Source: Streptomyces sp. NBC_01235 (GTDB lineage Bacteria > Actinomycetota > Actinomycetes > Streptomycetales > Streptomycetaceae). From it: DNA of 64,000 nt. The notes below the pieces were generated by a model that worked only from the letters and a program-made list of their open reading frames with translations, did no database searches and was not told the origin of the DNA. A program made the translations under genes and the position numbers. Below are positions 43,965 through 60,001 of this stretch, piece by piece (the stretch's first letter is position 1; the number at the start of each line of letters is the position of its first letter). The stretch spans positions 2,170,001 to 2,234,000 of the forward strand of contig NZ_CP108513.1 of the NCBI RefSeq assembly GCF_035989285.1, written 5' to 3'.

Positions 43965-44615
43965 TCAGTCCTTGGCGAGTTCCAGCAGGGCGAGGGTGGC
44001 CCTGTTCGCTTTCTCGGCCAGCGGTGCGAGCGACCGTCGCTTGCCGTCCCACATGGCCCAGCGGTTCGCGCCTTCGAGGACCGTCATGACGAGCTTGACC
44101 TGCTGGACCGAGGCGCCGAAACCCATGTCCTCGGCCGCGGCGCGGTAGAGCGCCTCGTACAGATCGACCCAGGCGTCGACTTCGTGGCGGAGCGTCGGCG
44201 GCAGGAAGTGGACGACCTGGTCGGTCGCCACCAGCAGGTCCCACAGGTTGCTCTCGGGAAGCTCGATCTGTCGGGTCAGGTGCACGTGCACCATCCGGCG
44301 CCAGCCCTCCCCGGCGTCCGTGATCCCTCGCACCTCGTCGAGTACTGCGGCACCGAACTTGTAGAAGTGCCAGCGAAGGGACTCGGCCACGATCTCGTCG
44401 CGGCCGTCCGGGAAGTGGTTGTACAGGCTCGGGGCCTTGATGGACATCTCCTTGGCGATCATCCGCATGGTGACCGAGTTGAAGCCGTTCTCGGTGGCCA
44501 GCCGGAGGAACGCCTCCAGGATCGCCCGCCGAGAGGCGCTCTGCCGACTCCAGTCGAGCTCGCTGAGATGCTTGTCGAACTCCTCGACCGCGCGGGGCCA
44601 CCGCTCCTCGGCCAC
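43965..44615 (-). CDS. TetR-family regulator, probable master of the 43.5-58.8 kb cluster
   Basis: I start at the GTG (44615) because AAGGAGG stands five bases before it; an ATG seven codons upstream has no such site. The 216-residue protein has an N-terminal helix-turn-helix (ASRRAILEAFLRLATENGFN, SVTMRMIAKEMSIKAPSLYN, HFPDGRDEI) and a helical ligand domain. Two copies of a 20-bp semi-palindrome lie between it and the divergent FAD/Fe-S oxidase gene. Two further copies lie upstream of the 2-hydroxyacid dehydrogenase/LysR pair and of the reductase-flavodoxin-P450 operon. Control of all of them is a strong inference; the ligand is unknown. Confidence 0.9.
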   Translation of the reverse strand: MAEERWPRAVEEFDKHLSELDWSRQSASRRAILEAFLRLATENGFNSVTMRMIAKEMSIKAPSLYNHFPDGRDEIVAESLRWHFYKFGAAVLDEVRGITDAGEGWRRMVHVHLTRQIELPESNLWDLLVATDQVVHFLPPTLRHEVDAWVDLYEALYRAAAEDMGFGASVQQVKLVMTVLEGANRWAMWDGKRRSLAPLAEKANRATLALLELAKD

Positions 44616-44658
44616 TGACTCCTCCTTCGCCCGCATGCACCGCCGTGCGGCGCAGGAA

Positions 44659-44678
44659 ACTACCTTACGTTAGTCAGG
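44659..44678. promoter_or_regulatory. regulon operator, copy 1
   Basis: ACTACCTTACGTTAGTCAGG. It matches copy 2 in its first 19 bases except at two positions and is 43 bases from it on the same strand. It lies 44 bases upstream of the TetR start codon. Confidence 0.65.
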
Positions 44679-44728: not shown

Positions 44729-47518
44729 ATGCCCGTTGACGCACAGCACGACCTCGCCGCCGCTCTTCGCACTGCAGGGGTCGAGTTCGACGACTCGCCC
44801 CTGACACGAGCTCTGTACTCTTCCGACGCGAGCCTCTACCGCGTCGTCCCGTCCGCGGTCGTGAAAGCGCGCGGCGAGGACGACGTGATCGCGGCCCACG
44901 AGGTGGCGCGTGAGTTGCGGGTACCGGTGACGATGCGCGGCGCGGGCACCAGCATCGCCGGCAACGCGGTCGGCAGCGGCATCGTCATCGACACCCGTCG
45001 CTTCAACCGGGTGCTCGACATCGACCCGGTCGCGCGCACGGCGCGGGTGGAACCGGGCGTGGTGCACGCCGATCTGCAACGCGAGGCTGCCCTTCACGGG
45101 CTGCGGTTCGGACCGGACCCGTCCTCGCACAGCCGCTGCACGGTCGGCGGCATGATCGGCAACAACGCCTGCGGGTCGCGGGCGCTGGGCTACGGGCGGA
45201 CGGTGGACAACGTCGAGTCGTTGCGCGTGCTGTACGGAAACGGCGAACTGTCCCTGGAACAGGCCGGCCGGGTCGGCGGCGACACCGCAAGACGGCTGGC
45301 GGCCGTCGGGGACGCCCACCTGGCCCATCTGCGTACTGAGTTCGGCCGCTTCGGCCGCCAGGTCAGCGGCTACGGACTGGAGCACCTGCTGCCCGAGCGG
45401 CGCCGCATCGAACGGTTCCTGGTCGGCAGCGAAGGGTCGCTGGCCACGGTCCTTGAGGCGACCGTCCGGCTGGTCGACGACCGGGTCGAACGCAGGATGC
45501 TGGTGCTCGGATACCCGACGATGGCCGAGGCGGCCGATGCCGTACCGGCGCTGCTCGCCGCGGCGCCGGGCCGGCTCGTCGCGTGCGAGGGCATGGACTC
45601 GCGCATCGTGGATCTGGTGCGGGCCAAGGGTTCGCCGGTGCCCGATCTGCCACGGGGGCAGGGCTGGCTGTTCGCGGAAGTGGCTGGCGATGACGCGACC
45701 GACGCGGTGCGGCGGCTCGTAGCAGCGGCCGCCGCGCTGGACACGCGGCTCGTCGACGACCCTCGTGAGGCCGCCGCGTTGTGGCGCATCCGTGAGGACG
45801 GTGCCGGGCTCGCCGGCCGGTCGCTGTCCACGCCGGCGTACGGCGGATGGGAGGACGCCGCCGTACCGCCGGAGCACCTCGGTGCGTGGCTGCGCGACTT
45901 CGAGGAACTCCTGCGGGCGCACGGCCTGCAGGGCGTTCCGTACGGGCACTTCGGCGACGGCTGCGTCCACTGCCGCATCGACTTCCCGTTCCGGCCCGGC
46001 GACCCGGCCTCGGCCGCGGTGTTCCGCGAGTTCATGACCGCCTGTGCGACACGGCTGCGTGACTACCGCGGCACGCTGTCCGGAGAGCACGGTGACGGCC
46101 GGGTCCGCGGGGAGCTGTTGCCATTGATGTACGACGAGATGTCCCTGTCCCTGTTCCGGCAGGTCAAGACGGTGTGCGACCCGGACGGCATCCTCAACCC
46201 CGGCATCATCGCCGACCCGGTTCCGCTCACCGACGACCTGCGCCCGGTGCGCCCCCAGGCGCCGGTGCGTCCAGGTCTGCGGCTGGTACACGACGCCGGT
46301 GACCTGGGCGCCGCCGTGCATCGCTGCACCGGCGTCGGGAAGTGCGTCGCTCCGAAGACCGCAGGAGTGATGTGCCCGTCCTATCTCGCCACGAGCGACG
46401 AACGGGACTCGACTCGCGGCCGGGCCCGGGTGCTGCAAGAGGCACTCGACGGCGGCCTGCTGAGCGGTGGTCTGCAGGACCCTGCCGTGGCCGAGGCGCT
46501 CGATCTGTGCCTCGCGTGCAAGGGATGTTCGAGCGACTGCCCAAGCGGCGTCGACATGGCCACCTATAAGAGCGAGGTGCTGCACCAGCGGCACGACGTC
46601 GCCGGGCTGCGCCGGCCGCGTTCGCATCTGTTCCTCGGGCGGCTCCCGAAGTGGGCTCGGCTCACGGCACCGCTGGCGCGGCCCGCCAACCTGCTCCTGC
46701 GTGCCGGACCGCTCGCCGCGCTGGCCAAGTGGGCCGCCGGCATCGACCAGCGGCGGTCCGTACCGCGGTTCGCCTCCCCCACCCTGAGAAAGGCGACAGA
46801 CGCGGCGCACGCGAGGGACACACCGCCCGATGTGTGGATCTGGGCCGACTCCTTCACCGACCACTTCTTCCCGGTCTCCGGCCTGGCGGCGATCCGGTTC
46901 CTGGAGTCGCACGGCCTCACGGTCCGTGTCATCCGGGAGGACGCCTGCTGCGGCCTGACCTGGATCACGACCGGCCAGCTCGACCGGGCGCGGACCATCG
47001 TCGACCGGACCCTGCGAACCCTGGCGCCCTACGTCCGCAGCGGAATCCCCGTGATGGCTCTGGAGCCGTCGTGTCTCGCGACAATGCGCAGCGACGCGGC
47101 AGAGTTGTGCGACGCCGAGGAGGCGGACGTGGTGGCGTCGGGGCTGCTGAGCTTCGCCGAGCTCGTCGAGCGCCTCGACCTGCCGCTGCCCGACCTGACC
47201 GGTGTGGAGGTGGTCGCGCAACCTCATTGCCACCACAGCGCGGTCATCGGCTGGGACACCGACCAGCGTTTGCTGGAGAAGGCCGGCGCGACGGTCACCA
47301 AGGTGCAGGGGTGCTGCGGCCTGGCCGGCAACTTCGGTGTGGAGAAGGGACACTACGAGGTCAGCGTTGCGGTCGCCGAGACACATCTGCTGCCGGCGGT
47401 GCGGGCCCTCGGGGACGCGGTGGTGCTGGCGGACGGCATGTCCTGCCGCGTCCAGCTCGACGACCTGGCCCACGTGCCGACGCAGCATCTGGCCGAGCTG
47501 TTCGCCTCCCGCGTCTGA
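44729..47518 (+). CDS. FAD-linked oxidase with C-terminal 4Fe-4S and CCG domains (D-2-hydroxyacid dehydrogenase type)
   Basis: The 929-residue protein fuses a GlcD-like flavoprotein to a GlcF-like iron-sulfur protein. The FAD domain has VTMRGAGTSIAGNAVGSG and CTVGGMIGNNACGSRALGYG. The FAD-oxidase C-terminal domain holds the substrate pocket (GHFGDGCVHCRIDF, LSGEHGDGRVRGEL). Iron-sulfur ligands follow at C533 (RCTGVGKC ... MCPSY) and C594/C597/C600/C604 (CLACKGCSSDCP). Two CCG-type motifs end it (EPSCLATM, QGCCGLAGNFG). It would oxidise a D-2-hydroxy acid and pass electrons to the quinone pool. The operator pair just upstream links it to the TetR regulon. Confidence 0.9.
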   Translation: MPVDAQHDLAAALRTAGVEFDDSPLTRALYSSDASLYRVVPSAVVKARGEDDVIAAHEVARELRVPVTMRGAGTSIAGNAVGSGIVIDTRRFNRVLDIDPVARTARVEPGVVHADLQREAALHGLRFGPDPSSHSRCTVGGMIGNNACGSRALGYGRTVDNVESLRVLYGNGELSLEQAGRVGGDTARRLAAVGDAHLAHLRTEFGRFGRQVSGYGLEHLLPERRRIERFLVGSEGSLATVLEATVRLVDDRVERRMLVLGYPTMAEAADAVPALLAAAPGRLVACEGMDSRIVDLVRAKGSPVPDLPRGQGWLFAEVAGDDATDAVRRLVAAAAALDTRLVDDPREAAALWRIREDGAGLAGRSLSTPAYGGWEDAAVPPEHLGAWLRDFEELLRAHGLQGVPYGHFGDGCVHCRIDFPFRPGDPASAAVFREFMTACATRLRDYRGTLSGEHGDGRVRGELLPLMYDEMSLSLFRQVKTVCDPDGILNPGIIADPVPLTDDLRPVRPQAPVRPGLRLVHDAGDLGAAVHRCTGVGKCVAPKTAGVMCPSYLATSDERDSTRGRARVLQEALDGGLLSGGLQDPAVAEALDLCLACKGCSSDCPSGVDMATYKSEVLHQRHDVAGLRRPRSHLFLGRLPKWARLTAPLARPANLLLRAGPLAALAKWAAGIDQRRSVPRFASPTLRKATDAAHARDTPPDVWIWADSFTDHFFPVSGLAAIRFLESHGLTVRVIREDACCGLTWITTGQLDRARTIVDRTLRTLAPYVRSGIPVMALEPSCLATMRSDAAELCDAEEADVVASGLLSFAELVERLDLPLPDLTGVEVVAQPHCHHSAVIGWDTDQRLLEKAGATVTKVQGCCGLAGNFGVEKGHYEVSVAVAETHLLPAVRALGDAVVLADGMSCRVQLDDLAHVPTQHLAELFASRV

Positions 47519-47625: not shown

Positions 47626-48510
47626 TCAGTGGATCTCGTTGCGCAGGGTCCCGACCTTCTCCAGGACGACCTCGACCTTGTCGCCCGGACGCAGCCACAG
47701 GGGCGGGTTCCGCTTCGCCCCGATGCCCTCGGGGGTGCCGGTGGCGATGACGTCGCCGGGGCCGAGGGTGAGGAACTGGCTGATGTAGGAGATGACCCTC
47801 GCGACCGGGAAGATCATGTGCCTGGTGTTGGAGCCCTGGACGCGGGTGCCGTTGACGAAGGTCTCGATGTCCAGGGCCTGCGGGTCACCGATCTCGTCCA
47901 GGGTGACGATCGCGGGCCCGAAGGGCGTCGCCCGGTCCACGGCCTTGCCCGCGAGCCACTGGGTGCCGCGGTACTGCAGGTCGCGGGCGGTGATGTCGTT
48001 GAGGACGGACAGGCCCGCCACGTACGCCAGGGCGTCGCTCTCCTCCACACGGCTGCACTCCCTTCCGATGACGACCGCCAGTTCGCCCTCGAAGTCGAGG
48101 TTGTCGGTGACGTCGGACCGGTCGATGGCGTCGTAGGGGCCGATCAGGCTGCTGGCGAACTTGGCGAACAGGTCGGGATGGGCCGGCATGGCGCGGCCGG
48201 TCTCGCCGACGTGGTCCGAGTAGTTCAGGCCTACGCACAGGACCTTGAGCGGGTCGGTGACCGGTGGTCCGAGCCGCACGGAGTCAAGGCTCCCCACGGG
48301 CTTCAGGGCCCCTTCGTCGAGGACCGGTCCGATGGCTGCGGCGATCTGAGGCAAGTGGCCGCCGTGTGTCTGGAGGAAGGCGCGGACGGACGGGAGGTCG
48401 GAGGAGGCCCGGCACCCCGCGGCCCATAGCGCGGCATTGAGGCTGAACACCTGGTCACCGTGGAGAAGGCCCGGCTGCCAGGCGCCGGATTCGTAGGAAA
48501 CGAGCTTCAC
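47626..48510 (-). CDS. fumarylacetoacetate hydrolase (FAH) family protein
   Basis: The 294-residue protein has an FAH domain: VLCVGLNYSDHVGETGRAMP, then the metal site DFEGELAVVIGRECSRV (two Glu) and VAGLSVLNDITARDLQYRG (Asp). GDVIATGTPEGIGAKRNPP follows near the end. Members hydrolyse or isomerise C-C bonds in 3-keto acids or decarboxylate oxo-acids. I start at the GTG at 48510, which follows GAAGGA. It precedes the shared palindromic terminator and is in line with the ALDH and monooxygenase genes on the - strand. Confidence 0.88.
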   Translation of the reverse strand: MKLVSYESGAWQPGLLHGDQVFSLNAALWAAGCRASSDLPSVRAFLQTHGGHLPQIAAAIGPVLDEGALKPVGSLDSVRLGPPVTDPLKVLCVGLNYSDHVGETGRAMPAHPDLFAKFASSLIGPYDAIDRSDVTDNLDFEGELAVVIGRECSRVEESDALAYVAGLSVLNDITARDLQYRGTQWLAGKAVDRATPFGPAIVTLDEIGDPQALDIETFVNGTRVQGSNTRHMIFPVARVISYISQFLTLGPGDVIATGTPEGIGAKRNPPLWLRPGDKVEVVLEKVGTLRNEIH

Positions 48511-48619
48511 GTCATGTCCTTCGGGTGTGAGTCGCAGGGCGGTGTGTGTGCCGTTCACGGCTGCGCCCTGCCCGCCGGGGAGGGTTGCGGGCAGGGCGCC
48601 GTGTGCGGGGCGGAACCCG

Positions 48620-49990
48620 TCAGGAGAGACGGATGGTCTTCTTGTTGGCGAACTCGTCCAGGCCGAGCCGACCGAGCTCACGGCCGATCCCGGAGGCCTT
48701 CACGCCGCCGAAGGGCAGGTCGGGCTGGCTGCGGATGAGGGTGTTGAGGCCGACCATGCCGACCTCCAGACGTTCGGCGATGTCCGCGGCGAGGTCCTCG
48801 TCACGGGTGAACACGGCCGACCCGAGCCCGAAGCGGGAGTCGTTCGCGAGGTCGACGGCCTCCTCGACGGAGTCGACCTTGTACAGGACGGCGACGGGGC
48901 CGAAGAGCTCCTCGCTGTGGGCGCGCATGTCCGGTGTGACCCCGGTGATGACGGTGGCCGGGTAGAACGCACCGGGGCCGTCGGGGACCACGCCACCGAG
49001 GTGCAGTTCGGCGCCCTTGGACACGGCGTCCTCGACCTGCTCGGCGATCTCCTGCCGGCCGGACTCGGACGCCATCGGTCCGATGCGTGTCTCCGGGTTC
49101 AGCGGATCGCCGGTGTTCCACTGTTTCGCGCGGTCGAGGAACCCTTCGAGGAAGCGGTCGTAGACGTCGCTGTGGACGATCATCCGCTTGGACGACGTGC
49201 AGGACTGGCCGGCGTTGCTGAACCGGCCGGTCGCGGCCAGGTCGAGCGCGAGATCGAGGTCGGCGTCGGGCAGGACGATGAAGGGGTCCGAGCCGCCGAG
49301 TTCGAGGACGCACTTCTTGAGATGCCGGCCGGCCTGTTCGGCCACCGTCCGGCCGGCTTCCTCGGAGCCGGTCAGTGAGACGCCCTGGAGACGGATGTCG
49401 GCGATGAGGGCGCCGATCTGCGAGGACGACACGATGAGGTTCTCGTAGACGCCCTTCGGGGCGTTGGCGTCGGCGACGACAGCGTCGATGAGGAGCGCCG
49501 TGCGGGTGCAGGAGCGGGCGTGCTTGAGCAGGACGGTGTTGCCGAGCAGCAGGTTCGGGGCGACGAACCGCGCCACCTGGTAGAGCGGGAAGTTCCACGG
49601 CATGATCCCGAGCACAGGGCCCGTGGGCGCCGTCCGGACAACAGCCCGTCCCCCGGCTCCGACCTCGATCACCTCGTCGGCCAGCAACCGGGCGCCGGCA
49701 CCGGCGTAGTACTCGTAGATCGAGGCCGAAAGGTTGACCTCGCCCTCGGCCTGGGCGAGCGGCTTGCCCATCTCGGTCGCCATCGCCTCGGCGAGTTCGG
49801 CGCCGCGTTCCCGGTGCAGCTCGGCGATACGGGCGAGCACGGCGACCCGGTCCTCGATCCGGGCGCGGGCCCAGTCGCGGTAGGCGTCGGTGGCCCGGGT
49901 GAGCGCCTCGGCGGCCTCGGTGTCGGTCATCATCGTGTACTCGGCGAGCACCTCACCGTTGAGCGGCGAGATGGTCTGGTAAGTGGGCAT
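48620..49990 (-). CDS. aldehyde dehydrogenase (succinate-semialdehyde-type)
   Basis: The 456-residue ALDH lacks the long N-terminal extension of typical ALDHs, as SSADH-like YneI proteins do. It has the PWNFPLYQVARFVAPNLLLG segment, VSLTGSEEAGRTVAEQ, the Glu in VLELGGSDPFIV and the Cys in [25 protein letters not shown] closes it. I chose the ATG at 49990 with GGAGAAG upstream, rather than the ATG five codons earlier. The monooxygenase gene is 36 bases upstream and certainly cotranscribed. It would oxidise an aldehyde released after ring cleavage. Confidence 0.9.
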   Translation of the reverse strand: MPTYQTISPLNGEVLAEYTMMTDTEAAEALTRATDAYRDWARARIEDRVAVLARIAELHRERGAELAEAMATEMGKPLAQAEGEVNLSASIYEYYAGAGARLLADEVIEVGAGGRAVVRTAPTGPVLGIMPWNFPLYQVARFVAPNLLLGNTVLLKHARSCTRTALLIDAVVADANAPKGVYENLIVSSSQIGALIADIRLQGVSLTGSEEAGRTVAEQAGRHLKKCVLELGGSDPFIVLPDADLDLALDLAATGRFSNAGQSCTSSKRMIVHSDVYDRFLEGFLDRAKQWNTGDPLNPETRIGPMASESGRQEIAEQVEDAVSKGAELHLGGVVPDGPGAFYPATVITGVTPDMRAHSEELFGPVAVLYKVDSVEEAVDLANDSRFGLGSAVFTRDEDLAADIAERLEVGMVGLNTLIRSQPDLPFGGVKASGIGRELGRLGLDEFANKKTIRLS

Positions 49991-50026
49991 GGCGTGCTTC
50001 TCCAAACCGCTTGCGGGGGTGGGGGG

Positions 50027-51649
50027 TCAGACCGCGGACGGGACGCGGACCTCGTAGCTGGGATATCCCTGGGCCGCTTCGGCCTCGGAGATCGCGATGT
50101 ACTTGTCGAGACCGCCGACGTAGAAGTTGGCGGTGCGGGCCTTGCGTTTGCCGGGGATGTTGTTGCCGAAGATCCAGGAGCCGGTCTCCAGGAACAGGGA
50201 GCCCTTGAGCTCGTCGAGGCAGGTCCGCAGCCAGTTCTCCTCGGCCTCCTCGCGCAGCCAGATCGAGGCGCCGGGGGTGTCCCTGACGCTCTTGACGGCC
50301 TGGGCGATCCACTTGGCCTGGACGCCGATGCCGGAGGGGTTGTTGACGAACGGGCCGTTGGGTCCGAGGACCATGAACAGGTTCGGGAAGCCGGACACGG
50401 TCATGCCCATGTGACTGCGGGGGGCGTCGGCCCAGTGCTCCTTGAGGGTCCTGCCGCCGATGCCGCGGATGTCCATGTTCCGGTAGCTGCCCTCGACGGC
50501 GTCGAAGCCGGTGGCCAGGATCAGGACGTCCAGCTCGTGAAGGGTGCCGTCCTGGGTGACGATGCCGTCGGCCACGAACTCCTCGATGGGGTTCTCCCGG
50601 GTGCTGACGAGGGTGACGTTGGGCTGGTTGAAGATCTCGAAGTAGCCGGAGTCGCAGATGGGGCGCCGAGCGAACAGCTCGGTCGGGGTGAGCTTGCGTG
50701 CCGTCTCCGGGTCCTTGACGATCTCCTTGATCTTCCGCTTGATGAAGTCGGCGGCGAGCTCGTTGGCGGCGCGGTCGCTGGTGACGTCGCAGAAGGTCTC
50801 GTTGGCGAAGGTGTAGTTGCCGCCCTTGCGCCAGGCCCACTCGAAGATGGCCTCGCGCTCCTCCTCCGAGACACTCCAGATGCTGCGCGTGGTCTCGTCG
50901 ACACCGAAGCCGATCTTGGAGGTGCGGAACTCCTCCCAGCGGTCCTCGCAGGTGGCCTTGAACTGCTCCAGCTCGGCCTCGGACCACTCGCGGTTGCCGG
51001 CCGGGACGGTGTACTGCGCGGTGCGCTGGAACGAGGTCAGGTGGGCGACGGTTTTGGCGGCCTCGGTCATGAACTGGATGCCGGTGGAGCCGTTGCCGAT
51101 CACGCCGATGCGCAAGCCCGTGATGTCGAGGTCCTCTGGCCAGTCGGCGGTGTGGACGATGCGGCCCTCGAACCGGTCGATGCCGGGGAAGTCGGGGATG
51201 TTGATCCGGGAGAGCAGGCCGGCGGCGGTGATGAGGAAGCGGGCGCGGAACTCCCCCTTGTCGGTGACGACGTGCCAGCGTGCGCTCTCCTCGTCGAAGG
51301 CCGCGCGGAGCAGGCTGGTCTCCAGCTGGATCCGGGAGCGCAGGTCCCAGAAGTCGACGGCGTCCTCGACGTACCGGCGGATCTCGGGGCCGGGGACGTA
51401 GCGGGTGCGCCAGTCGGTCCGCTGGAACAGTTCCCTGTCATAGGGCAGCTGGTACATGAAGCTCTGCGTGTCGGAGAGCGCCCCCGGGTAGCGGTTCCAG
51501 TACCAGGTACCGCCGACCTTCGGCGCCTTGTCGATGGCGATCGCGTCGAGGCCGGCGTCGGCGGTGAGGGTGCGCAGTGCCATGACGCCGCCCATGCCGG
51601 TTCCCACGACGAGCGCATCGATTTCACGCACGGTTTCTTCGCTGCCCAT
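50027..51649 (-). CDS. flavin-containing Baeyer-Villiger-type monooxygenase
   Basis: The 540-residue flavoprotein has the FAD motif G16-T-G18-M-G-G21, then VGGTWYWNRYPGALSDTQS. The Baeyer-Villiger fingerprint F160-x-G162-x3-H166-x3-W170 is intact (FEGRIVHTADW), and the NADPH motif is IGNGSTG. The late ILATGFDA motif is also present. It resembles cyclohexanone/cycloketone monooxygenases, which insert oxygen beside a ketone to give a lactone or ester. AAAGGAG six bases before the ATG marks the start. It leads a - strand unit of monooxygenase, aldehyde dehydrogenase and FAH-type hydrolase, a logical order for opening a cyclic ketone. Confidence 0.92.
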   Translation of the reverse strand: MGSEETVREIDALVVGTGMGGVMALRTLTADAGLDAIAIDKAPKVGGTWYWNRYPGALSDTQSFMYQLPYDRELFQRTDWRTRYVPGPEIRRYVEDAVDFWDLRSRIQLETSLLRAAFDEESARWHVVTDKGEFRARFLITAAGLLSRINIPDFPGIDRFEGRIVHTADWPEDLDITGLRIGVIGNGSTGIQFMTEAAKTVAHLTSFQRTAQYTVPAGNREWSEAELEQFKATCEDRWEEFRTSKIGFGVDETTRSIWSVSEEEREAIFEWAWRKGGNYTFANETFCDVTSDRAANELAADFIKRKIKEIVKDPETARKLTPTELFARRPICDSGYFEIFNQPNVTLVSTRENPIEEFVADGIVTQDGTLHELDVLILATGFDAVEGSYRNMDIRGIGGRTLKEHWADAPRSHMGMTVSGFPNLFMVLGPNGPFVNNPSGIGVQAKWIAQAVKSVRDTPGASIWLREEAEENWLRTCLDELKGSLFLETGSWIFGNNIPGKRKARTANFYVGGLDKYIAISEAEAAQGYPSYEVRVPSAV

Positions 51650-51881
51650 GTATTGCTCCTTTGCGGGATCTCGCGCACAGAAAAGCGACTCGACCGGCAG
51701 GGCGGACGCAGGCGCTGACACACGGTCATTTGTTACGCCTGGATTGCCGGATGGGAGTCGAGTGCGATTTCGACAACGTGACGTTACGTCCGGGAAATGT
51801 TGATCGCCAGATGGAATTGATGCGAAGGTGGCGGACGATTGTTTCCGGAACTGAAATGATCAATGCGGCGACGAGAGTGTT

Positions 51882-52808
51882 TCAGGCGACGGCGGACGAG
51901 CGTTCGCGCTGCAGGTAGCGGCGCAGGTGGCCGAGTGCGGCTTCGACGGGTGGGTCGGCGGACGCGGATCGCCACGCCGCGCGCAGGTGGACGTCGGGTA
52001 CGAGTTCGCATTCGCGTCGGGTGAGCGGGACGAAGACGACGTTGGGATTGGCCGTCGAGCGGGAGACGGATCGCAGGGCGAGATGGCAGCCGACCTCGGC
52101 CCCGACCAGCGCCAGACAGGAGGAGGTGTCGGGAGCGAACTGGACGTTGTTGATGCCGCCGGTGCCGTGGGCGTAGCCGAGGCGCCACAGCCGGTCGGTG
52201 GTGACCGATCCGGTGGCGTAGGGCAGGGAGACGAACGGCTCGGCGGCCACGTCCTGGAAGGAGACGACCTGGGAGCCGGCGAGCCGGTGGGTCCGGGGCA
52301 CCGCGACCACGAGCGAGTCGTTGATCAAAACCTCGCTGTCGAGGCCGGGGGGCAGGTTGTCGAAGCGGCCGAGCCCGACGTCCACCTCTCCGTCCAGCAG
52401 GCGGCGGATCGTCGGCCTCGAGACGGCCTGTGAGGTCAGATCGAGGCGGATGCCGGGGTGGTCGGCGCGCATGCCGCGGGAGAGGGCGGCCACCAGAGGA
52501 TGCGCCGCGACCCCGCAGAACTCGACCCGGACGGTGCCGGACTCGCCGGAGACGGCGGCGCTGACCGCGGCTTCGGCGACGGCGACCGCATCGAGCACCT
52601 CACGGGCCGGCCCCACGAGGGCTTTGCCGGCGGGAGTGAGGGAGACCGATCGGGTGTTGCGCTCGAACAGGCGGCTGCCGAACTCGCTCTCGAGGGCCTG
52701 GATGGTTCGGCTCAGGGGCGCCTGGGCCATGAAGAGCTGCTCCGCGGCGCGGCCGAAGTGCAGGTGTTCGGCGACCGCGAGGAATGCCTGAAGTTGTCGC
52801 ACGTTCAC
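51882..52808 (-). CDS. LysR-family transcriptional regulator
   Basis: The 308-residue protein starts at the GTG after GGAGG (nine bases). Its winged helix reads VRQLQAFLAVAEHLHFGRAA then EQLFMAQAPLSRTIQALESE. The effector domain follows (VRVEFCGVAAHPLVAALSRG). It resembles BenM/CatM-like regulators of aromatic and alicyclic catabolism. It lies upstream of the monooxygenase unit in the same direction and divergent from the 2-hydroxyacid dehydrogenase gene. One TetR-regulon operator lies in the divergent interval. Confidence 0.9.
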   Translation of the reverse strand: MNVRQLQAFLAVAEHLHFGRAAEQLFMAQAPLSRTIQALESEFGSRLFERNTRSVSLTPAGKALVGPAREVLDAVAVAEAAVSAAVSGESGTVRVEFCGVAAHPLVAALSRGMRADHPGIRLDLTSQAVSRPTIRRLLDGEVDVGLGRFDNLPPGLDSEVLINDSLVVAVPRTHRLAGSQVVSFQDVAAEPFVSLPYATGSVTTDRLWRLGYAHGTGGINNVQFAPDTSSCLALVGAEVGCHLALRSVSRSTANPNVVFVPLTRRECELVPDVHLRAAWRSASADPPVEAALGHLRRYLQRERSSAVA

Positions 52809-52849
52809 GGTCGTACACCTCCGCTTGTGACGCTCGACACCTACCATAG

Positions 52850-52869
52850 GCTAACGTCCGTTAGTTAGC
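52850..52869. promoter_or_regulatory. regulon operator, copy 3
   Basis: GCTAACGTCCGTTAGTTAGC aligns without gaps to the copies at 44.7 and 55.8 kb and has perfect 6-bp outer arms (GCTAAC/GTTAGC). It lies 41 bases from the LysR start and 160 bases from the divergent dehydrogenase start. Confidence 0.65.
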
Positions 52870-53028: not shown

Positions 53029-54012
53029 ATGTCTCTTGCAAGCAGCACCGAAATCCCGGTCGGCACCGCCGGTCGCGCCGGTGGTTTGCTCCTTGTCGGT
53101 CCTCAGCAATACCCGAGCCTGGAGCGGGAGCGGGCGCTGGCCGAGGAGTTCGGGCTGGACTTCGTGGTGGCGCCGGACCGGAAGGCGTTCCGTGCGTCGA
53201 TCCCGGAAGCGACCGTGGTCATGGTGACCCCGTACGCGCCCGTGGAGGCCCAGGACTTCGCCGCGATGAAGAAGTGCATCGCCGTGGTGCGATACGGCAT
53301 CGGCTACGACAACATCGACGTGACGGCCGCCCGGACGAAGGGTGTGCCGGTCGCGATCGTGCCGGGTGCGGCGACCGAGGAGGTCGCGTCGCACGCGCTC
53401 ACCATGGGGCTGCTGCTGGCGCGGCGCATCCCGGCGGGGCAGTCGGCCATCGAGGCCGGCCGGTGGGCGGGCAGCGTCGGGATGGACACGCCGCGGTTCT
53501 CACAGCTGGACGTCGCGGTCGTGGGCATGGGCCGGATCGGCCGCCAGGTCGCCCGGTGGTATGCCGCCCTGGGCACGAACGTGCGCGCCTACGACCCGTT
53601 CGCGACCTTCGACTCGGTACCCGCCGCGCCGCTGAGGGAACTGCTCGAACAGTCCGACGTGGTGTCGCTGCACCTGCCGCTGTCGGCCGAGACCCGAAAC
53701 CTTGTGTCGGCCGAGGTCATCCGGCGTATGCGGCCACGCTCGGTCATCGTCAACGTCTCGCGCGGCGGGCTCGTCGACGAGGCCGCTCTGGCGGACGCGC
53801 TGCGGTCCGGCCATCTGGCGGGGGCGGGTCTGGACACCTTCACGACCGAGCCGCTGCCGGCGGACCACGTACTGCGCGGTGTGCCGAACCTGGTGATGAC
53901 CCCGCACGTCGCGTGGCGGTCCGACCTGGCGATGGACGCACTCCAGGAGGCCGTCGTGCTGCGCGCCCGACAGGCGCTGACAGGCCGGCCCCTGTCGGAC
54001 CTGGTCACCTGA
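53029..54012 (+). CDS. D-isomer specific 2-hydroxyacid dehydrogenase
   Basis: The 327-residue protein has the fold of phosphoglycerate/2-hydroxyacid dehydrogenases. The catalytic domain includes VVRYGIGYDNIDV and VPGAATEEVASHAL. The NAD motif is VAVVGMGRIGRQVARWYAAL with an acidic residue after it (RAYDP). The catalytic Arg is in NVSRGGLVDE and the His in MTPHVAW. It interconverts a 2-oxo acid and a D-2-hydroxy acid. The FAD/Fe-S oxidase controlled by the same operator would act on the same class of compound. No Shine-Dalgarno is obvious. An APC permease gene follows in the same direction. Confidence 0.9.
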   Translation: MSLASSTEIPVGTAGRAGGLLLVGPQQYPSLERERALAEEFGLDFVVAPDRKAFRASIPEATVVMVTPYAPVEAQDFAAMKKCIAVVRYGIGYDNIDVTAARTKGVPVAIVPGAATEEVASHALTMGLLLARRIPAGQSAIEAGRWAGSVGMDTPRFSQLDVAVVGMGRIGRQVARWYAALGTNVRAYDPFATFDSVPAAPLRELLEQSDVVSLHLPLSAETRNLVSAEVIRRMRPRSVIVNVSRGGLVDEAALADALRSGHLAGAGLDTFTTEPLPADHVLRGVPNLVMTPHVAWRSDLAMDALQEAVVLRARQALTGRPLSDLVT

Positions 54013-54198
54013 CCGGACCGGCATCCCGCCGCGACCACCTTCCCCCACACCAGAACGTCTGCGCGGACATCGGTGCCGGCGCAGCGAGCTCCACGCGGTG
54101 AGCCCGTACCTGAAGAGGACGGCATCACACGGGGAGGCGACACCTACACCCAACCGGCCCCGCGGTAGCTCGGTGGGCCTCACCAGGAAGAGAAACTC

Positions 54199-55671
54199 AT
54201 GGCACGACACGAGCAGGTCCCCACCGTGAGTGGTGAAAGACGAAGGGCGGAGGTCGTGGACCAGCCGCGGCATCTGCAGGGCAACATGGGCGTCGGCGAG
54301 CTCGCCATGAGCGTACTCGCGTTCTCCGCGCCGCTGACCACGGTGGCGGGGTTCATCCCGGTGCTGCTGATGTTCGGCGGCAAGACCGGGCCGGCGATCT
54401 ACATCGTGGCCACGGTCATACTCCTGGCCTTCTGTGTGGGCTTCACCGTGATGGGCCGTACCGTTCCGAACCCCGGCGGCTTCTACGCCTTCGTGACACA
54501 GGGACTCGGCCGCTCGGCCGGTCTGGGCGGCGCGCTCCTGGCGACCTTCGGCTACTTCATGATCGGGTTCTTCGCCCCACCGTTCTTCGCCATCACCATC
54601 CAGGGCTACGTGGAGAAGAACCTCGGCGGTCCCCACATCGGCTGGGGCTGGTATGCGCTGGCGATCGTCGCGGTGACCACCGCTCTCGCCTACCGGCGCA
54701 TCGACCTCTCGGCGAAGGTGCTGACCGCGGTCATGGTGCTCGAGGTCATAGTCGTCGTCATCTTCGATGTCGCGTCGTTCGCGCACGGGGCCCCGTCCGG
54801 CGCGGGGGGCGCCTCGCTGAGCCTGCCGTGGGTCACCGACCCCAACATCGGTGTCGCCCTCCTGTTCGTGGTCGGCAACTTCTTCGGTTTCGAGGCGACC
54901 GTTATCTTCCGCGAGGAGGTCAAGGACCCCGACAGGACCATCCCGCGGGCCACCTACCTGTCCGTGGCGGGCATCGGCGTCTTCTACGCCCTGGCCGCGT
55001 GGGCCTACATCGCCTTCACCGGCGCGGACAAGGCTCAGGCGGCCGCCACGGCCAACATGGGCGGGATGTTCACCGACGCGATGACCGCGCTGGTCGGCAA
55101 GACCGTGGTGGACGTCGTCACCGTCCTGCTGATGACCTCGATCCTGGCGTCGATGCTGTCCATCCACAACGTCACGGCGCGGTACATGCACTCCCTCGGT
55201 ACCGACGGTGTGGTGCCGACGGCACTGGGCAAGGTGCACCCCAAGCACGGCTCGCCCTACGCGGCCGCGTCCATCATCGGTGCGCTGTGGGCGATCGGCG
55301 TGGTCCTGTTCGTGGCGCTGGGCAGCGACCCGAACGTCCTGTACGCACGTGCCTCCGGAATCGGTTCCTTCGCGATCCTGCTGCTCCTGTTCGCGGCCAG
55401 TGTGGCGGTGTTCTTCTACTTCCGCCACAACCCGTCCTCCCAGCCCGTGTGGAAGACAGCGGTGGCACCAATCCTGTCGGCCGCCGGAATCGGCGTGGTC
55501 GCGTACCTCGCGGTGACGAACTACTCGGACCTGCTCGGCGGCTCCGGCTTCTTCACCTCGTTCTTCCTGTTCTTCACGTTCGCCCTGTTCCTCGCCGGGA
55601 TGGCCTACGCACGCGTTCTGCGTCGCCGACGCCCCGAGGTCTATCAGCGCATCGGCCGCCAGGAACTGTGA
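54199..55671 (+). CDS. APC-family amino acid/amine permease
   Basis: The 490-residue protein has about 12 membrane segments and the APC opening (LQGNMGVGELAMSVLAFSAP, FGGKTGPAIYIV, PGGFYAFVTQGLG). GNFFGFEATVIFREEVKDPD follows in the sixth segment and HPKHGSPYAA after the eighth. CAGGAAGAG precedes the ATG. It is a paralogue of the permease at 61.7 kb, sharing this layout and the ending RRxRPEVY. It probably imports an amine, amino acid or related organic compound used by this cluster. Confidence 0.9.
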   Translation: MARHEQVPTVSGERRRAEVVDQPRHLQGNMGVGELAMSVLAFSAPLTTVAGFIPVLLMFGGKTGPAIYIVATVILLAFCVGFTVMGRTVPNPGGFYAFVTQGLGRSAGLGGALLATFGYFMIGFFAPPFFAITIQGYVEKNLGGPHIGWGWYALAIVAVTTALAYRRIDLSAKVLTAVMVLEVIVVVIFDVASFAHGAPSGAGGASLSLPWVTDPNIGVALLFVVGNFFGFEATVIFREEVKDPDRTIPRATYLSVAGIGVFYALAAWAYIAFTGADKAQAAATANMGGMFTDAMTALVGKTVVDVVTVLLMTSILASMLSIHNVTARYMHSLGTDGVVPTALGKVHPKHGSPYAAASIIGALWAIGVVLFVALGSDPNVLYARASGIGSFAILLLLFAASVAVFFYFRHNPSSQPVWKTAVAPILSAAGIGVVAYLAVTNYSDLLGGSGFFTSFFLFFTFALFLAGMAYARVLRRRRPEVYQRIGRQEL

Positions 55672-55751
55672 CGACCTCCCTCTGACGGCGGCCGGCCGAC
55701 CTCGATCAAGCAATCACGCCCTTCGCCCGACCGGGGTCGGCACCCGCCTTC

Positions 55752-55774
55752 TATACTTACGACCGTTAGTTAGT
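55752..55774. promoter_or_regulatory. -10 box overlapped by regulon operator, copy 4
   Basis: TATACT (55752-55757) is a good -10 element. The operator ACTTACGACCGTTAGTTAGT (55755-55774) overlaps it and aligns without gaps to the other copies. A repressor here would block the reductase-flavodoxin-P450 operon directly. Confidence 0.65.
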
Positions 55775-55824
55775 CACGCGTTTCATCGCACCTGTCGAAC
55801 CCTTCCGCAGCAACCGAGGTAGCC

Positions 55825-57102
55825 ATGAAAACTCCGGCACAGACAGCGCACGCGATCCCGTTCCGGGTCGCGGTCGTCGGCGCCGGCCCCAGCGGGTGTT
55901 ACGCGGCCCAGGCTCTGCGCAAGGGGCAGCCGGACGTCGAGATCGCCGTCTTCGACTCGCTGCCGACGCCGTTCGGGCTGGTCCGGTACGGCATAGCACC
56001 GGACCACCAGGGCGCCAAAGCGGTGTCGCGGCAGTTCGAGCGGGTCTTCGGACAGCCGGGAGTGGAGTTCGTCGGGAACGTGTCCATCGGGATCGACATC
56101 GACTTCGAGTCCCTTCTCGAGAACTTCCACGCGGTGGTGCTCGCGACCGGGCTGGGGGCGGACCGGCAACTGGACATCGACCTGGATCCGGACGCCCGGG
56201 TCGTAGGCGCAGGAGATCTCGTCCGGCTGTTGAACTCGGACCCGGACGCCCGCCTGCGTCACCGGCGAGCCGGTCTCGAAAGCCTCGGTGCCGAAGTCGT
56301 GATCCTCGGCACCGGGAACGTCGCGGTGGATGTCGCACGACTGCTGTCGAAGTCCGACCTGGACTTCATCGCGTCCGACGTCGACGACGACGCACTGCGC
56401 GCAGTGGCGCCGAGCCCCGTACGGACCATTCACATCCTGGGGCGGTGTCAGTCCCATCTGGCCAAGTGGGACGCGTCGATGGTGAAGGAACTCGCCCAAG
56501 TCGTCGGCGTCCAGGTGAGCGTCGACGGCACGCCCTTGCTCCATGAGCCCACGATGTCCCCGCGCACGACGGTGAACGTGCGGTTCCAACAGGTGCCGAC
56601 CTCCATTCGGCGGCACGACGGCCGCATCCGCGTGACGACGCACCGTACAGGCGACAGCGACCTGGTCGACCATCTCGACGCCGACACCGTCATCACGGCG
56701 CTCGGGTTCGACACCTCTTCGGCACAGCTGGCGCAGTTCGCCGGCCTTGAGGCTCCGAACGTCTTCCGGGTGGGCGGTCCGGCCACCGGCCGCCTGGGCA
56801 ACCTGGCGGAGAACCGGAAGCTGGCGGCAGACACGGCGAAGGGCGTCCTCGCCTTCCTGCGCGGCCAGGAACCGCGGCACCGTCCGGGCCTGGACGGGCT
56901 CCGCGGCCACCTGCCCGCCTCGACCGTGAGCTTCCAGGCATGGCAGCGCATCGACGACGCCGAGATCCGGCGTGCCCGGCCCGACAGGTGCCGTACCAAG
57001 TTCACTACCCGGGACGGACTCCTCGCCGCAGCGGCGGGTTCCGATGCCCTGCCTTCCATCCCGCTGGCCACTACTGGGCCACCGGCAACACAGGAGAAGT
57101 GA
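55825..57102 (+). CDS. FAD/NADP-dependent reductase, adrenodoxin-reductase/FprA-like
   Basis: The 425-residue flavoprotein has the FAD motif VAVVGAGPSGCYAAQALRKG, PTPFGLVRYGIAPDHQG (the adrenodoxin-reductase signature) and the NADP motif VILGTGNVAVDVARLL. Near the C-terminus the usual G-W-x-K-R-G-P-x-G-x-I-G-T-N flavin/NADP segment is changed to RVGGPATGRLGNLAENR. A tail of about 80 residues follows that I cannot place. The flavodoxin start lies one base after its stop, and the P450 follows. It should transfer electrons from NADPH to the flavodoxin, as XplB does for XplA. Confidence 0.88.
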   Translation: MKTPAQTAHAIPFRVAVVGAGPSGCYAAQALRKGQPDVEIAVFDSLPTPFGLVRYGIAPDHQGAKAVSRQFERVFGQPGVEFVGNVSIGIDIDFESLLENFHAVVLATGLGADRQLDIDLDPDARVVGAGDLVRLLNSDPDARLRHRRAGLESLGAEVVILGTGNVAVDVARLLSKSDLDFIASDVDDDALRAVAPSPVRTIHILGRCQSHLAKWDASMVKELAQVVGVQVSVDGTPLLHEPTMSPRTTVNVRFQQVPTSIRRHDGRIRVTTHRTGDSDLVDHLDADTVITALGFDTSSAQLAQFAGLEAPNVFRVGGPATGRLGNLAENRKLAADTAKGVLAFLRGQEPRHRPGLDGLRGHLPASTVSFQAWQRIDDAEIRRARPDRCRTKFTTRDGLLAAAAGSDALPSIPLATTGPPATQEK

Positions 57103-57103
57103 A

Positions 57104-57556
57104 ATGACTGTCGTACACGTCCTGTTCGGGACCGAGTCGGGCAACGCCGAAATGGTCGCGGACGACATCGCTGCCGCCTTCGGCGACCAGGGATTCGAGA
57201 CCGTCACCGCGGAGCTGACCGACGTCGAGGTTTCCGACCTGGCCGACATGCACATCGCGGTGTTCGTCAGTTCCACCTACGGGGAGGGTGGACTGCCGGA
57301 GACTGCTGCGCCCTTCTACGACGCCCTCATGGCGGAGCGCCCCGACCTGACCGGTGTGAGGTTCGCGGCGTTCGGACTCGGCGACAGCGTCTACGAGACG
57401 TTCAACAACGCGATCGAGACCCTCCGCACGGCGCTCCTGGAGCTCGGCGCGGAACAGATCGGAACCACGGCCAGGCACGACGCGGCCTCGACCACCCCCG
57501 CCACGGAACTCGCCGAGGCATGGGCCCGTGACCTCCTGGCCCTCATGCCCGCCTGA
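57104..57556 (+). CDS. flavodoxin (FMN)
   Basis: The 150-residue protein has the FMN phosphate loop FGTESGNAEMVADD at the N-terminus. The two isoalloxazine-contact regions follow: SSTYGEGGLPETAAPFYDAL and AAFGLGDSVYETFNN. Length and motifs are those of short-chain flavodoxins or the flavodoxin domain of fused P450 systems. CAGGAGAAG precedes the ATG. Its place between an adrenodoxin-reductase-like flavoprotein and a P450 shows it is the P450's electron donor instead of a ferredoxin. Confidence 0.93.
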   Translation: MTVVHVLFGTESGNAEMVADDIAAAFGDQGFETVTAELTDVEVSDLADMHIAVFVSSTYGEGGLPETAAPFYDALMAERPDLTGVRFAAFGLGDSVYETFNNAIETLRTALLELGAEQIGTTARHDAASTTPATELAEAWARDLLALMPA

Positions 57557-57605
57557 CGCTGCCTCGGCCTGCCCAGATTCGCCAGATTCGAAGGAGTGAC
57601 CGCAG

Positions 57606-58817
57606 ATGAGCTTGACCATCGAGGACGCCTCGGCGCTGTTCCCGTGGAACGACGAGGGATTCCGGGCCGACCCGTACCCGGCCTACGAGCGGGCGCGGGC
57701 GATCGCGCCGGTGCACCGGACCACGGAGAACACGTATGTGGTGCTGAACCACGCGGACACCATGCACAACGCGAAACTGCCCTGTATGCGGATCGCGGAG
57801 CCGCCCTCCTTCGCCGCCCCCGGCGGGCCGCCGCACCCGTGGACCGCGTTCGACAACACGGTCCTGTCGAAGGACGCACCGGAGCACACCAGGATGCGAC
57901 GCCTGACGAACCGCTGGCTGACGCCGAAGATGATCGGCACCTGGGCCCGGTCGACGCATGACTTCACGGCCGAGGCGCTCGACCGGCTCACCCCGGGCGA
58001 GGTGGTGGACGCCCACTTCGACCTCGGCGTGATGCCGACCCACCTCACGATGTGTCGCATCCTCGACATGCCCGTCGGTGACGTGGAGGGGATGTTCTGG
58101 GCCCTGTGGGACGCGATGCTCATCAACGCGACCGCACCGGGCGAGGGCATCCACGCCAGATCACTGGCCGGCATGAACTTCATGTTCGCCGAGACGGAGC
58201 GGTACGTGCGAGAGAAGCAGAGCGCGGAGGAGCCCGGAAACGGGCTGGTCGACGAGCTCCTCGCGGCCCACTCGCGCGGTGAGCTCACCTGGCGCGAAGT
58301 CCTGGAGACCACCGTCCTGCTGTACATGTCGGGCGGCCCGAACCCCGCCTACCTCATCGGTGCCGGATTCAAGCTGTTCGCCGAACGACCGGACCTGATG
58401 GCGGAGTTCGGGCAGCGGCCGGAGATCCGGGACGCCTTCATCAACGAGCTGGCACGGCTGAACCCGGTGGAACTCATCATCACGCGCTTCCCGAACGAGG
58501 ACATCGAGATCCAGGGCGTGCGGATCCCGGCCGGCTCGTGCATCAAGTACCCGATCGGCGCCGCGAACCGGGACCCCGCTGTATTCGAGAAGCCCGACGA
58601 GTTCGACTACAACCGTCCACCGGAGGCAAGCCGGAACCTCACTTTCGGGCTCGGTACCCACGCCTGCGCCGGGCAGTTGCTGGCACGGGCCGAGACCAGT
58701 GTGATCCTCGGCCTCGTCGCCGAGCGGTACTCCTCGGTCGAACTCGTCGGCGAGCCCTCCGAGGTCCGCACCGATCGTCTGGTCGCGTTCGACAAGCTGC
58801 CCGTCCGGCTGACGTGA
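57606..58817 (+). CDS. cytochrome P450 lacking the I-helix acid-alcohol pair
   Basis: The 403-residue P450 has the ExxR motif E281-R284 (NELARL) and the haem loop FGLGTHACAGQ with C354. In the I-helix, where A-G-x-(D/E)-T-T is expected, it has S-G-G-P245-N246-P247 (YMSGGPNPAYLIGAG). The proton-relay acid is Pro and the threonine is Asn. P450cin has Asn at the Thr position and XplA lacks the pair altogether; both use flavodoxin partners. AAGGAG precedes the ATG. It is the third gene of the reductase-flavodoxin-P450 operon. It probably oxidises an oxygen-containing or otherwise self-assisting substrate, or is a reductive P450. Confidence 0.92.
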   Translation: MSLTIEDASALFPWNDEGFRADPYPAYERARAIAPVHRTTENTYVVLNHADTMHNAKLPCMRIAEPPSFAAPGGPPHPWTAFDNTVLSKDAPEHTRMRRLTNRWLTPKMIGTWARSTHDFTAEALDRLTPGEVVDAHFDLGVMPTHLTMCRILDMPVGDVEGMFWALWDAMLINATAPGEGIHARSLAGMNFMFAETERYVREKQSAEEPGNGLVDELLAAHSRGELTWREVLETTVLLYMSGGPNPAYLIGAGFKLFAERPDLMAEFGQRPEIRDAFINELARLNPVELIITRFPNEDIEIQGVRIPAGSCIKYPIGAANRDPAVFEKPDEFDYNRPPEASRNLTFGLGTHACAGQLLARAETSVILGLVAERYSSVELVGEPSEVRTDRLVAFDKLPVRLT

Positions 58818-58819
58818 GC

Positions 58820-59141
58820 CGGACCGTCGGCCGGGGCGGCCGTCGGCGTCCCGGTCCTCCCAGATGTCGTCGCGATAGACGGCCATGTGGTCGTGGAATC
58901 AGGCTTCCGGGAAGAGGGCTGCGTTCAGGGTGTGGTCCGGGTGGTGATGGCTGAAGACCACGTCGGTCACCTCCTGGGGCGCAATGCCGAATTCGGCGAG
59001 CGGGCCGAGGATGAGCCGACGGTCCGCGACCATGCCGGGGTCGACGACGACCACCGCGTCACTCTCGGTGGGCAGGGTAACGGTGCTGGCGACGCGGTCG
59101 TGGGCGTAGCCGGTGGTCAGGACAGGAATCATGGCGGGCAT
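58820..59141 (-). pseudogene. metallo-beta-lactamase-fold hydrolase, nonsense mutation and truncation
   Basis: From an ATG with AGGAG upstream it reads VVVVDPGMVADRRLIL and VTDVVFSHHHPDHTLNAALF (the H-x-H-x-D-H metal motif). A TGA at 58901-58899 then follows. Past it the same frame continues with family-like sequence (FHDHMAVYRDDIWEDRDADG). A single CGA-to-TGA change would explain the stop. The frame then meets the P450 3' end, so the rest of the roughly 250-residue family is gone as well. Confidence 0.7.
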
Positions 59142-59204
59142 AAGCGGCTCCTGGGATCTGGTCGTCGTGGGGACTGCACGACTGGGAGGTCTTGTGCGCT
59201 TCCC

Positions 59205-59816: not shown

Positions 59817-59886
59817 GGGCGCTCCTCGCTGTTGTGTCGCGGGTCCGAGCCTGTCGGAGCACTCAGCCCTCGCCGTAACCCAGACG

Positions 59887-59907
59887 TTACCGAATGCCTT
59901 TCAGTAA
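59887..59907. promoter_or_regulatory. TetR operator, upstream copy
   Basis: TTACCGAATG, central C, CTTTCAGTAA: a 21-bp palindrome with 8 of 10 pairs matching. It lies 71 bases from the TetR start. Confidence 0.6.
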
Positions 59908-59948
59908 AACTCTTCCCGTTATCACGGGCGGCGTCTACATTACCCGAA

Positions 59949-59968
59949 ACCGAACGCCTTTCAATTAA
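59949..59968. promoter_or_regulatory. TetR operator, downstream copy
   Basis: ACCGAACGCCTTTCAATTAA repeats the first copy in the same orientation exactly 60 bases away (17 of 20 bases identical). It lies 34 bases before the amidohydrolase start. Confidence 0.6.
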
Positions 59969-60001
59969 GCGGTCGGGTGAGAGAAGGGCGCCGTCACACC
60001 C

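Follow-up and report, generated by a model that had tools for sequence, protein, structure and literature searches.

The window analysed here (positions 2170001–2234000, i.e., 64,000 nucleotides, of the 11.09-Mb chromosome of Streptomyces sp. NBC_01235) carries three same-strand, tightly spaced open reading frames (ORFs), which encode a reductase of 425 amino acids, a flavodoxin of 150 amino acids and a cytochrome P450 of 403 amino acids (Table 1; coordinates are those of the window). A single base separates the reductase from the flavodoxin (57102/57104) and 49 bases separate the flavodoxin from the P450 (57556/57606), with an AAGGAG preceding the P450 start in this second gap, while Pfam and NCBIfam are concordant for the three gene types. 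The coupling of these genes had been recognized in an earlier note on this DNA, made from the sequence alone, which also likened them to XplA/XplB, the P450 system of Rhodococcus strains degrading the explosive RDX (hexahydro-1,3,5-trinitro-1,3,5-triazine), and both points hold. Because the P450 (42%), the flavodoxin (56%) and the reductase (41%) are each related at these identities to the corresponding parts of XplA/XplB, the three genes are, on sequence grounds, an unfused XplA/XplB-type system, i.e., XplB and XplA with the flavodoxin left separate, for which the claim of a new three-component system was too strong. What does appear to be new is that this module travels with an APC-family permease and a TetR-family regulator, and that it lies in a putative regulon marked by a palindrome.

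Table 1. Features of the P450 cluster and of its putative regulatory sites.
Feature	Position	Strand	Evidence
TetR-family regulator, proposed sensor/repressor	43965..44636	-	PF00440, E 1.3e-9
Putative operator site 1, ACTACCTTACGTTAGT, 2 mismatches to ACTAACGNNCGTTAGT	44659..44674	.	Between the TetR gene and the 44729 ORF
FAD / Fe-S D-2-hydroxyacid (D-2-hydroxyglutarate-like) dehydrogenase	44729..47518	+	NCBIfam YdiJ-like, 343 bits (below the cut-off of 1350); Pfam FAD_binding_4, FAD-oxidase_C and 4Fe-4S domains
Fumarylacetoacetate-hydrolase (FAH)-family enzyme, start codon uncertain	47626..48567	-	PF01557, E 3.8e-70
Aldehyde dehydrogenase, succinate-semialdehyde-dehydrogenase (SSADH) type	48620..50005	-	NCBIfam SSADH models, 361-505 bits (below cut-offs); PDB SSADH 4ogd, E 1.4e-113
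Cyclohexanone-monooxygenase-type Baeyer-Villiger monooxygenase (BVMO)	50027..51721	-	Top PDB match cyclohexanone monooxygenase 7v8o, E 1.2e-178
LysR-family regulator	51882..52847	-	Pfam HTH_1 and LysR_substrate
Putative operator site 2, GCTAACGTCCGTTAGT, 1 mismatch to ACTAACGNNCGTTAGT	52850..52865	.	Between LysR and the D-2-hydroxyacid dehydrogenase
D-isomer-specific 2-hydroxyacid dehydrogenase	53029..54012	+	PF02826, E 7.8e-53
APC-family permease, proposed substrate importer	54199..55671	+	PF00324/PF13520
Putative operator site 3, ACTTACGACCGTTAGT, 1 mismatch to ACTAACGNNCGTTAGT	55755..55770	.	54 bases 5' of the reductase start codon
FAD reductase, adrenodoxin-reductase/FprA/XplB type	55825..57102	+	FprA 1lqt, E 3.1e-35 over residues 12-237
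Short-chain flavodoxin, proposed electron donor	57104..57556	+	PF00258, E 8e-30
Cytochrome P450, XplA (CYP177-like) clade	57606..58817	+	XplA 4ep6, E 2e-104
Codons Pro245-Asn246-Pro247, I helix (acid position, alcohol position, next residue)	58338..58346	+	Alignment

Phylogenetic Position and Distribution of the P450

XplA (PDB 2wiv, 2wiy, 4ep6) is the nearest solved relative of the P450 by both sequence and fold. A PDB sequence search returned XplA 4ep6 first (353 bits, E 2e-104), followed by 8q5j (251 bits) and then by a match at 131 bits, while Foldseek, run with an AlphaFold2 model (mean pLDDT 89.4), ranked XplA 2wiy first (TM 0.93, 42% identity) and 8q5j, from Streptomyces scabiei, second. 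At 42–43% identity to XplA, which we take to be CYP177A1, the P450 lies near the 40% line above which P450s are assigned to one family and below the 55% line used for subfamilies. The new subfamily suggested in the earlier note stands in so far as the enzyme is distinct from XplA at this second line, but it is not of an unknown kind.

The search of predicted proteins yielded 67 relatives at 45–94% identity and then a drop to ≤33% among the matches listed, which are the best 120 of the 1433 hits obtained from 7997 scored candidates; these 120 do not include XplA itself, so that some relatives were missed. In a quick tree of 69 clade rows (32 of the 67 database relatives being used) and eight outgroup rows, the P450 and XplA fall together on one side of a branch (support 100) that separates them from ordinary P450s, a result that comes with a program warning of long-branch joins. 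A few genes are doubled among the 69 rows (e.g., L010/P0016 and L018/P0062), and L009 and L051 come from the same genome. The group of Streptomyces canus-type P450s is basal, followed by two single rows and XplA, and then by a group of 63 rows (support 98). Of the phylogenetic check proposed earlier, this tree covers the part on CYP177A (XplA). As for the parallel that had been drawn with P450cin (CYP176A1 of Citrobacter braakii), kinship between the two P450s was not shown: no P450cin-named chain occurs among the best 60 PDB sequence matches or the best 50 Foldseek matches.

Clade members were found in actinobacteria and proteobacteria, some of them on plasmids (12 records). They are rare accessory genes in the two samples searched, where only four candidates per genome were scored: own genome included, such a P450 occurs in 4 of 392 genomes of the genus (E 1e-80) and in 5 of 394 genomes of the class (E 1e-90 and alignment). 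In a related Streptomyces (G254; L038, L041, L046), equal-scoring copies of the P450 sit at mirrored sites close to the two chromosome ends, an arrangement that resembles terminal inverted repeats. Two or three XplA-clade P450s per genome or plasmid are seen in Ponticaulis, on a Sinorhizobium plasmid, in a Mycobacterium and in Mycolicibacterium P9-64 (L028, L034, L070/L071, G775); at L028 and L071, one of them adjoins flavodoxin and reductase.

Loss of the Acid–Alcohol Pair

When the conserved Gly of the I helix is matched to G243, the acid position is filled by P245 and the alcohol position by N246, followed by P247, whereas ordinary P450s of the same search listing read E-T (52/53) or E-G (1/53) at this site. 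No acid–alcohol pair was found elsewhere among the aligned residues 234–262, which confirms the Pro-Asn-Pro replacement described in the earlier note, while the heme motif (FGLGTHACAG) and the ExxR motif (ELAR) are intact. The AlphaFold2 model, another of the checks then proposed, breaks the I helix at residues 243–244, just before the three replaced positions.

All 68 rows (the P450 of the window and its 67 listed relatives, three of which are partial) have N246, and 63 of them have the complete Pro-Asn-Pro, so the motif is not due to chance. Across the 69 clade rows of the tree, the acid position is occupied by Pro (54), His (6), Met (3), Leu (3), Gln (1), Ser (1) or Ala (1), and the alcohol position by Asn (62, all within the group of 63 rows), Asp (5), Ser (1) or Ala (1); the latter is XplA, which reads Met-Ala-Ile where the NBC_01235 P450 has Pro-Asn-Pro. 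Asp and Glu are missing from the first of these positions, and Thr from the second, in every one of these rows, and the single row with Ser at the alcohol position has Gln at the acid position. P450cin also carries Asn in place of Thr but keeps its acid, the position that is Pro in the NBC_01235 enzyme.

The earlier note had gone further and tied supply by a flavodoxin to a modified proton relay, a principle that fails on two counts. First, the three S. canus-type P450s all lack the pair (Leu-Asp, helix GHLDV), and one annotated locus of this type (L037) has a 4Fe-4S ferredoxin gene directly after the P450 (annotation and Pfam), while no flavodoxin match was obtained at E 1e-10 in the two other S. 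canus-type genomes. The next nearest solved P450, SscaCYP of S. scabiei (8q5j, 34% identity), which is considered here together with this group, is likewise without the pair (GHLDV). Second, a protein of the NBC_01235 genome itself (at 8726578), in which Pfam recognizes P450, flavodoxin, FAD and NAD domains, keeps an intact AGHETT. Because of these two cases, which are the whole basis for the separation, relay loss is seen to track the XplA clade and not the electron donor, and two ideas that had been joined are now set apart.

The neighbours of the ferredoxin-type members (L037, L049, L050) include genes for a second P450, glutamine-synthetase-like and extradiol-dioxygenase-like proteins, an FAH-family enzyme and an aldehyde dehydrogenase, to which L037 adds folate one-carbon genes; to judge from these gene types, the neighbourhood looks like one for the catabolism of a methylated aromatic amine.

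Flavodoxin and Reductase

The flavodoxin is 56% identical to the flavodoxin domain of XplA, while its top PDB match and nearest solved relative is cindoxin (4oxx, E 2e-28), the separate flavodoxin of the P450cin system. It is the only stand-alone protein of three matches in the genome at E 1e-4, the other two being parts of large proteins. The reductase, whose gene adjoins the P450 system as XplB does in Rhodococcus, is 41% identical to XplB over aligned columns (38% by tblastn). For these comparisons, we used the genes of strain DN22, whose products are given as 100% identical to XplA and XplB of strain 11Y in PMC10820124.

Unlike in XplA, where the flavodoxin is fused to the N-terminus of the P450, the two proteins of NBC_01235 are encoded by separate ORFs (57104–57556 and 57606–58817). 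They form one polypeptide in 24 of the 67 listed relatives, and the distribution of this fusion on the tree requires a minimum of four state changes, whether gains or losses. The fusion probably arose more than once, that of XplA apart from the one in the Rhodococcus–Mycolicibacterium–Arthrobacter group. Scattered in this way over a single clade, these fusions offer a natural series for the origin of self-contained P450s. In whole-genome searches, an XplA-type flavodoxin was recovered on the contig of the P450 in Mesorhizobium (about 15 kb away) and Mycobacterium, and on another contig in Ensifer; apart from the S. canus-type group, every kind of clade genome covered generally has a flavodoxin, which in some lies away from the P450, the plasmid loci of Sinorhizobium and Sphingobium having been surveyed as loci only.

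In fold and in its FAD (GxGPSG) and NADP (GxGNVAxD) motifs, the reductase is of the FprA/adrenodoxin reductase type, but it departs from it in two places. The GRR motif, of which the Arg-Arg binds the 2'-phosphate of NADPH in FprA, reads GRC, and this second Arg is replaced in 22 of 22 aligned reductases of the family, while both FprA paralogs of the same genome keep it. Moreover, the C-terminal NADP segment, GWI(K/R)RGP in the two paralogs, has become GGPATGRLGNLAEN, an alteration that the earlier note had rightly pointed out; the Trp of this segment is lost in ten actinobacterial reductases, including that of NBC_01235, and kept in twelve. From what is known of FprA biochemistry, both changes point to a relaxed preference for NADPH. 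XplB assays with NADH are cited in a table of a review (PMC8081977).

Conserved Neighbourhood of the Clade

ORFs were clustered across 36 loci (35 with clade members and one stray, two loci being from one genome; L031, which is 24% identical and outside the clade, was excluded from the tree yet is within these 36). The reductase recurs in 25 of them, the APC permease in 26 and the TetR regulator in 23. By tblastn (E 1e-40), the APC permease is present in 25 of the 35 family loci vs. 1 of 20 loci around other P450s of NBC_01235 (Fisher p 1e-6, a value that ignores kinship and the unequal lengths of the stretches, 7–31 kb for the family vs. 19 kb for the controls). Neither the reductase nor the flavodoxin occurs in any of the 20 control loci, and TetR does so only where one stretch overlaps the P450 cluster. 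The sole APC-positive control (L004, G000:C1:6225736-6231726) has a P450 that is 31% identical and an APC permease about 3.4 kb away.

Pairwise distances of the P450, reductase, flavodoxin, APC permease and TetR regulator correlate with each other (r 0.82–0.92), none of 999 permutations being as high for any of the 10 pairs, with the TetR regulator paralleling the P450 at r=0.92 over 21 loci. Such parallels show that the genes travel jointly, not that their products are in contact.

Downstream genes fall into different sets. BVMO and LysR families occur together in 8 of the 36 loci, from seven genomes (Streptomyces, Modestobacter, Nocardia and Mycolicibacterium, where they adjoin a fused P450), accompanied by the aldehyde dehydrogenase (7 of 8), the D-2-hydroxyacid dehydrogenase (7), the FAH-family hydrolase (6) and the FAD/Fe-S dehydrogenase (5), some of these stretches ending inside the cluster. 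Six loci of the fused type share Gfo/Idh oxidoreductases and other genes instead, with a BVMO too in only one of the six. At one of them (L032), an IolE-like protein, an IolC kinase scoring above the NCBIfam cut-off, a levoglucosan-dehydrogenase-like protein and an aldolase-like protein are encoded in one closely spaced run with the APC gene. In the fused-type loci, the APC gene heads such a same-strand run, and the APC and reductase genes diverge from a gap bearing the palindrome described below. The Klebsiella sets (L035, L097) are plasmid-borne and consist of reductase, flavodoxin, P450, MFS, TetR and APC genes.

A Putative Palindrome-Marked Regulon

At up to two mismatches, the palindrome ACTAACGNNCGTTAGT has four distinct sites in the whole 11.09-Mb genome, three of which lie in the P450 cluster (44659, 52850 and 55755), while the same pattern written backward, used as a control, has three forward hits genome-wide. 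Across 38 loci (777,759 bases), 42 sites were counted, a number inflated by related genomes and overlapping sites, vs. 0–3 in 20 Markov controls. A variant, ACGAACGNNCGTTCGT (again with ≤2 mismatches), stands ahead of the reductase or the permease in loci of Pseudomonas, Pseudorhodoferax, Serratia and Klebsiella. Relatives of the TetR regulator, 31–91% identical (E 1e-30 or better), are encoded in 24 other loci of the 35. If a site is counted in these 35 loci when it lies no more than 250 bases upstream of a module gene, TetR and site occur together in 19, TetR without site in 6, site without TetR in 2 (L046 and L047, with no TetR within the fetched stretch) and neither in 8. The palindrome thus marks a putative regulon, and the TetR regulator is predicted to bind it. 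In the literature searched on XplA kin, Asn242 of P450cin, the acid–alcohol pair in relation to flavodoxin, SscaCYP, a tropine P450 and catabolic flavodoxin-P450 clusters, subscription papers being mostly outside reach, no description of the clade or of this regulon was found.

Proposed Function and Alternatives

In the interpretation that we prefer, and to which we would give about an even chance, the unfused XplA/XplB-type monooxygenase carries out the first oxidation in a catabolic regulon (43965–58817) that is under TetR control and directed at a small imported, probably amine, substrate. The APC permease would import this small polar compound, whose presence the TetR regulator would sense. 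Electrons would pass from NAD(P)H to the FAD of the reductase, the FMN of the flavodoxin and the heme of the P450, which would hydroxylate the carbon next to the nitrogen, so that an amine or dealkylated product is released and a cyclic ketone left. In place of the acid–alcohol pair, Asn246 and the polar or charged group of the substrate itself may position O2 and protons. The BVMO could then convert the cyclic ketone into a lactone, to be carried to central metabolism by the aldehyde dehydrogenase, the FAH-family hydrolase and the D-2-hydroxyacid dehydrogenases, whereas in the fused-type loci inosose-type enzymes, instead of a BVMO, would take over the ketone; either setting could accommodate a product that is a cyclic ketone or a polyol.

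The amine is the weakest part of the proposal. It is suggested because of the APC permease, of a 2,4-diaminopentanoate-dehydrogenase-like gene that adjoins XplB (166 bits for a cut-off of 400) and of genes resembling glutamine synthetase in the vicinity of L048 and of S. canus-type members. As candidate substrates, tropane alkaloids, calystegines, rhizopine-like inosamines and cyclohexylamine would all fit, though loosely.

Several observations speak against this proposal. Parallel distances are also expected from the shared descent of whole loci, and 6 of 25 TetR-bearing loci have no site within 250 bases upstream of module genes, even if four of these six have one farther off. The Klebsiella and Serratia loci possess reductase, flavodoxin, P450, TetR and APC genes without a BVMO or dehydrogenases alongside, so the downstream route must vary. 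Neither the cluster TetR, nor the palindrome, nor the BVMO, nor the APC family at E 1e-40 was found in two 17-kb xplA stretches, although another amino-acid permease is located near xplA in strain DN22. The permease itself has no PDB match that would point to its specificity, and transporters of the APC family take amino acids and further organic cations as well. Finally, XplA, the characterised member, acts reductively on RDX according to the review (PMC8081977).

Among the alternatives, the one that survives best, though we consider it unlikely, is that the P450 is a cyclic-ether or terpenoid hydroxylase in a route like that of 1,8-cineole (P450 hydroxylation, ketone, lactonisation by BVMO), with Asn246 holding the substrate oxygen as Asn242 of P450cin reportedly does. 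The match of the flavodoxin to cindoxin, the cyclohexanone-monooxygenase-type BVMO within the cluster and the Asn at the Thr position would all suit such a route, but no P450cin-named chain is among the best 60 sequence or 50 fold matches, the fused-type loci carry cyclitol-like genes and, in only one of six, a BVMO too, and a volatile terpene should not need the permease found in 25 of 35 loci.

Less probable still is a reductive P450 resembling XplA in its action on RDX, where loss of the pair would suppress O2 activation, so that even under air the electrons reach a substrate bearing a nitro, N-nitro or N-oxide group. Membership of the XplA clade and the lost pair argue for it, as does the link that the review (PMC8081977) draws between reductive chemistry under air and a lost Asp/Glu-Thr motif. 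However, the site of the pair is Met-Ala in XplA and Pro-Asn here, and the BVMO and the aldehyde and hydroxyacid dehydrogenases suggest that a carbon skeleton is oxygenated. P450cin, which also has Asn at the Thr position, is a monooxygenase.

We regard as very improbable that the P450 is a biosynthetic enzyme of a secondary-metabolite cluster, an idea for which the chromosome does offer a setting (31 P450-like matches at E 1e-10, including the XplA-clade P450), but not the neighbourhood, since 0 of 10 scanned proteins (44729–63227) is of an assembly-line type, these being catabolic types, regulators and permeases, and much of the gene set recurs in Modestobacter, Nocardia and Mycolicibacterium. 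Just as improbable is a flavodoxin that serves another partner and is a mere neighbour of the P450: the rhizobial genomes, in which the two genes lie apart, would allow it, but the repeated fusions (24 of 67 relatives, at least four state changes), the lack of any other stand-alone flavodoxin match in the genome at E 1e-4 and the parallel distances of the two proteins (r=0.84) argue against it.

Coming back to the regulon for an imported amine, a broader extension, possible rather than probable in our view, is that a widespread and mostly undescribed flavodoxin-driven P450 clade breaks C–N bonds of imported cyclic amines such as plant alkaloids or aminocyclitols through hydroxylation beside the nitrogen, with Asn and the substrate ammonium replacing the pair. 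Its TetR/palindrome switch would be conserved over a range that extends from actinobacteria to plasmids of enterobacteria, and XplA would have been recruited recently to RDX with a fusion of its own and without the ancestral switch. XplA is used for RDX clean-up, and the permease, the regulator, the palindrome and the two distinct downstream pathways now provide handles on the natural role of its relatives.

Borders of the Cluster

Directly to the right of the cluster, on the minus strand (58820–59141), lies what is probably the broken remnant of an MBL-fold hydrolase gene: an N-terminus of 80 amino acids (58899–59141, PF00753, E 1e-10) terminates at a stop codon, beyond which MBL-like residues continue briefly in the same frame, by eye, toward the P450 region. 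The next genes (59205–63227) encode a TetR regulator, an Amidohydro_3 amidohydrolase and a second APC permease; no palindrome site at ≤2 mismatches falls in this interval in the genome pattern search. This second permease is 39–41% identical to the one at 54199..55671.

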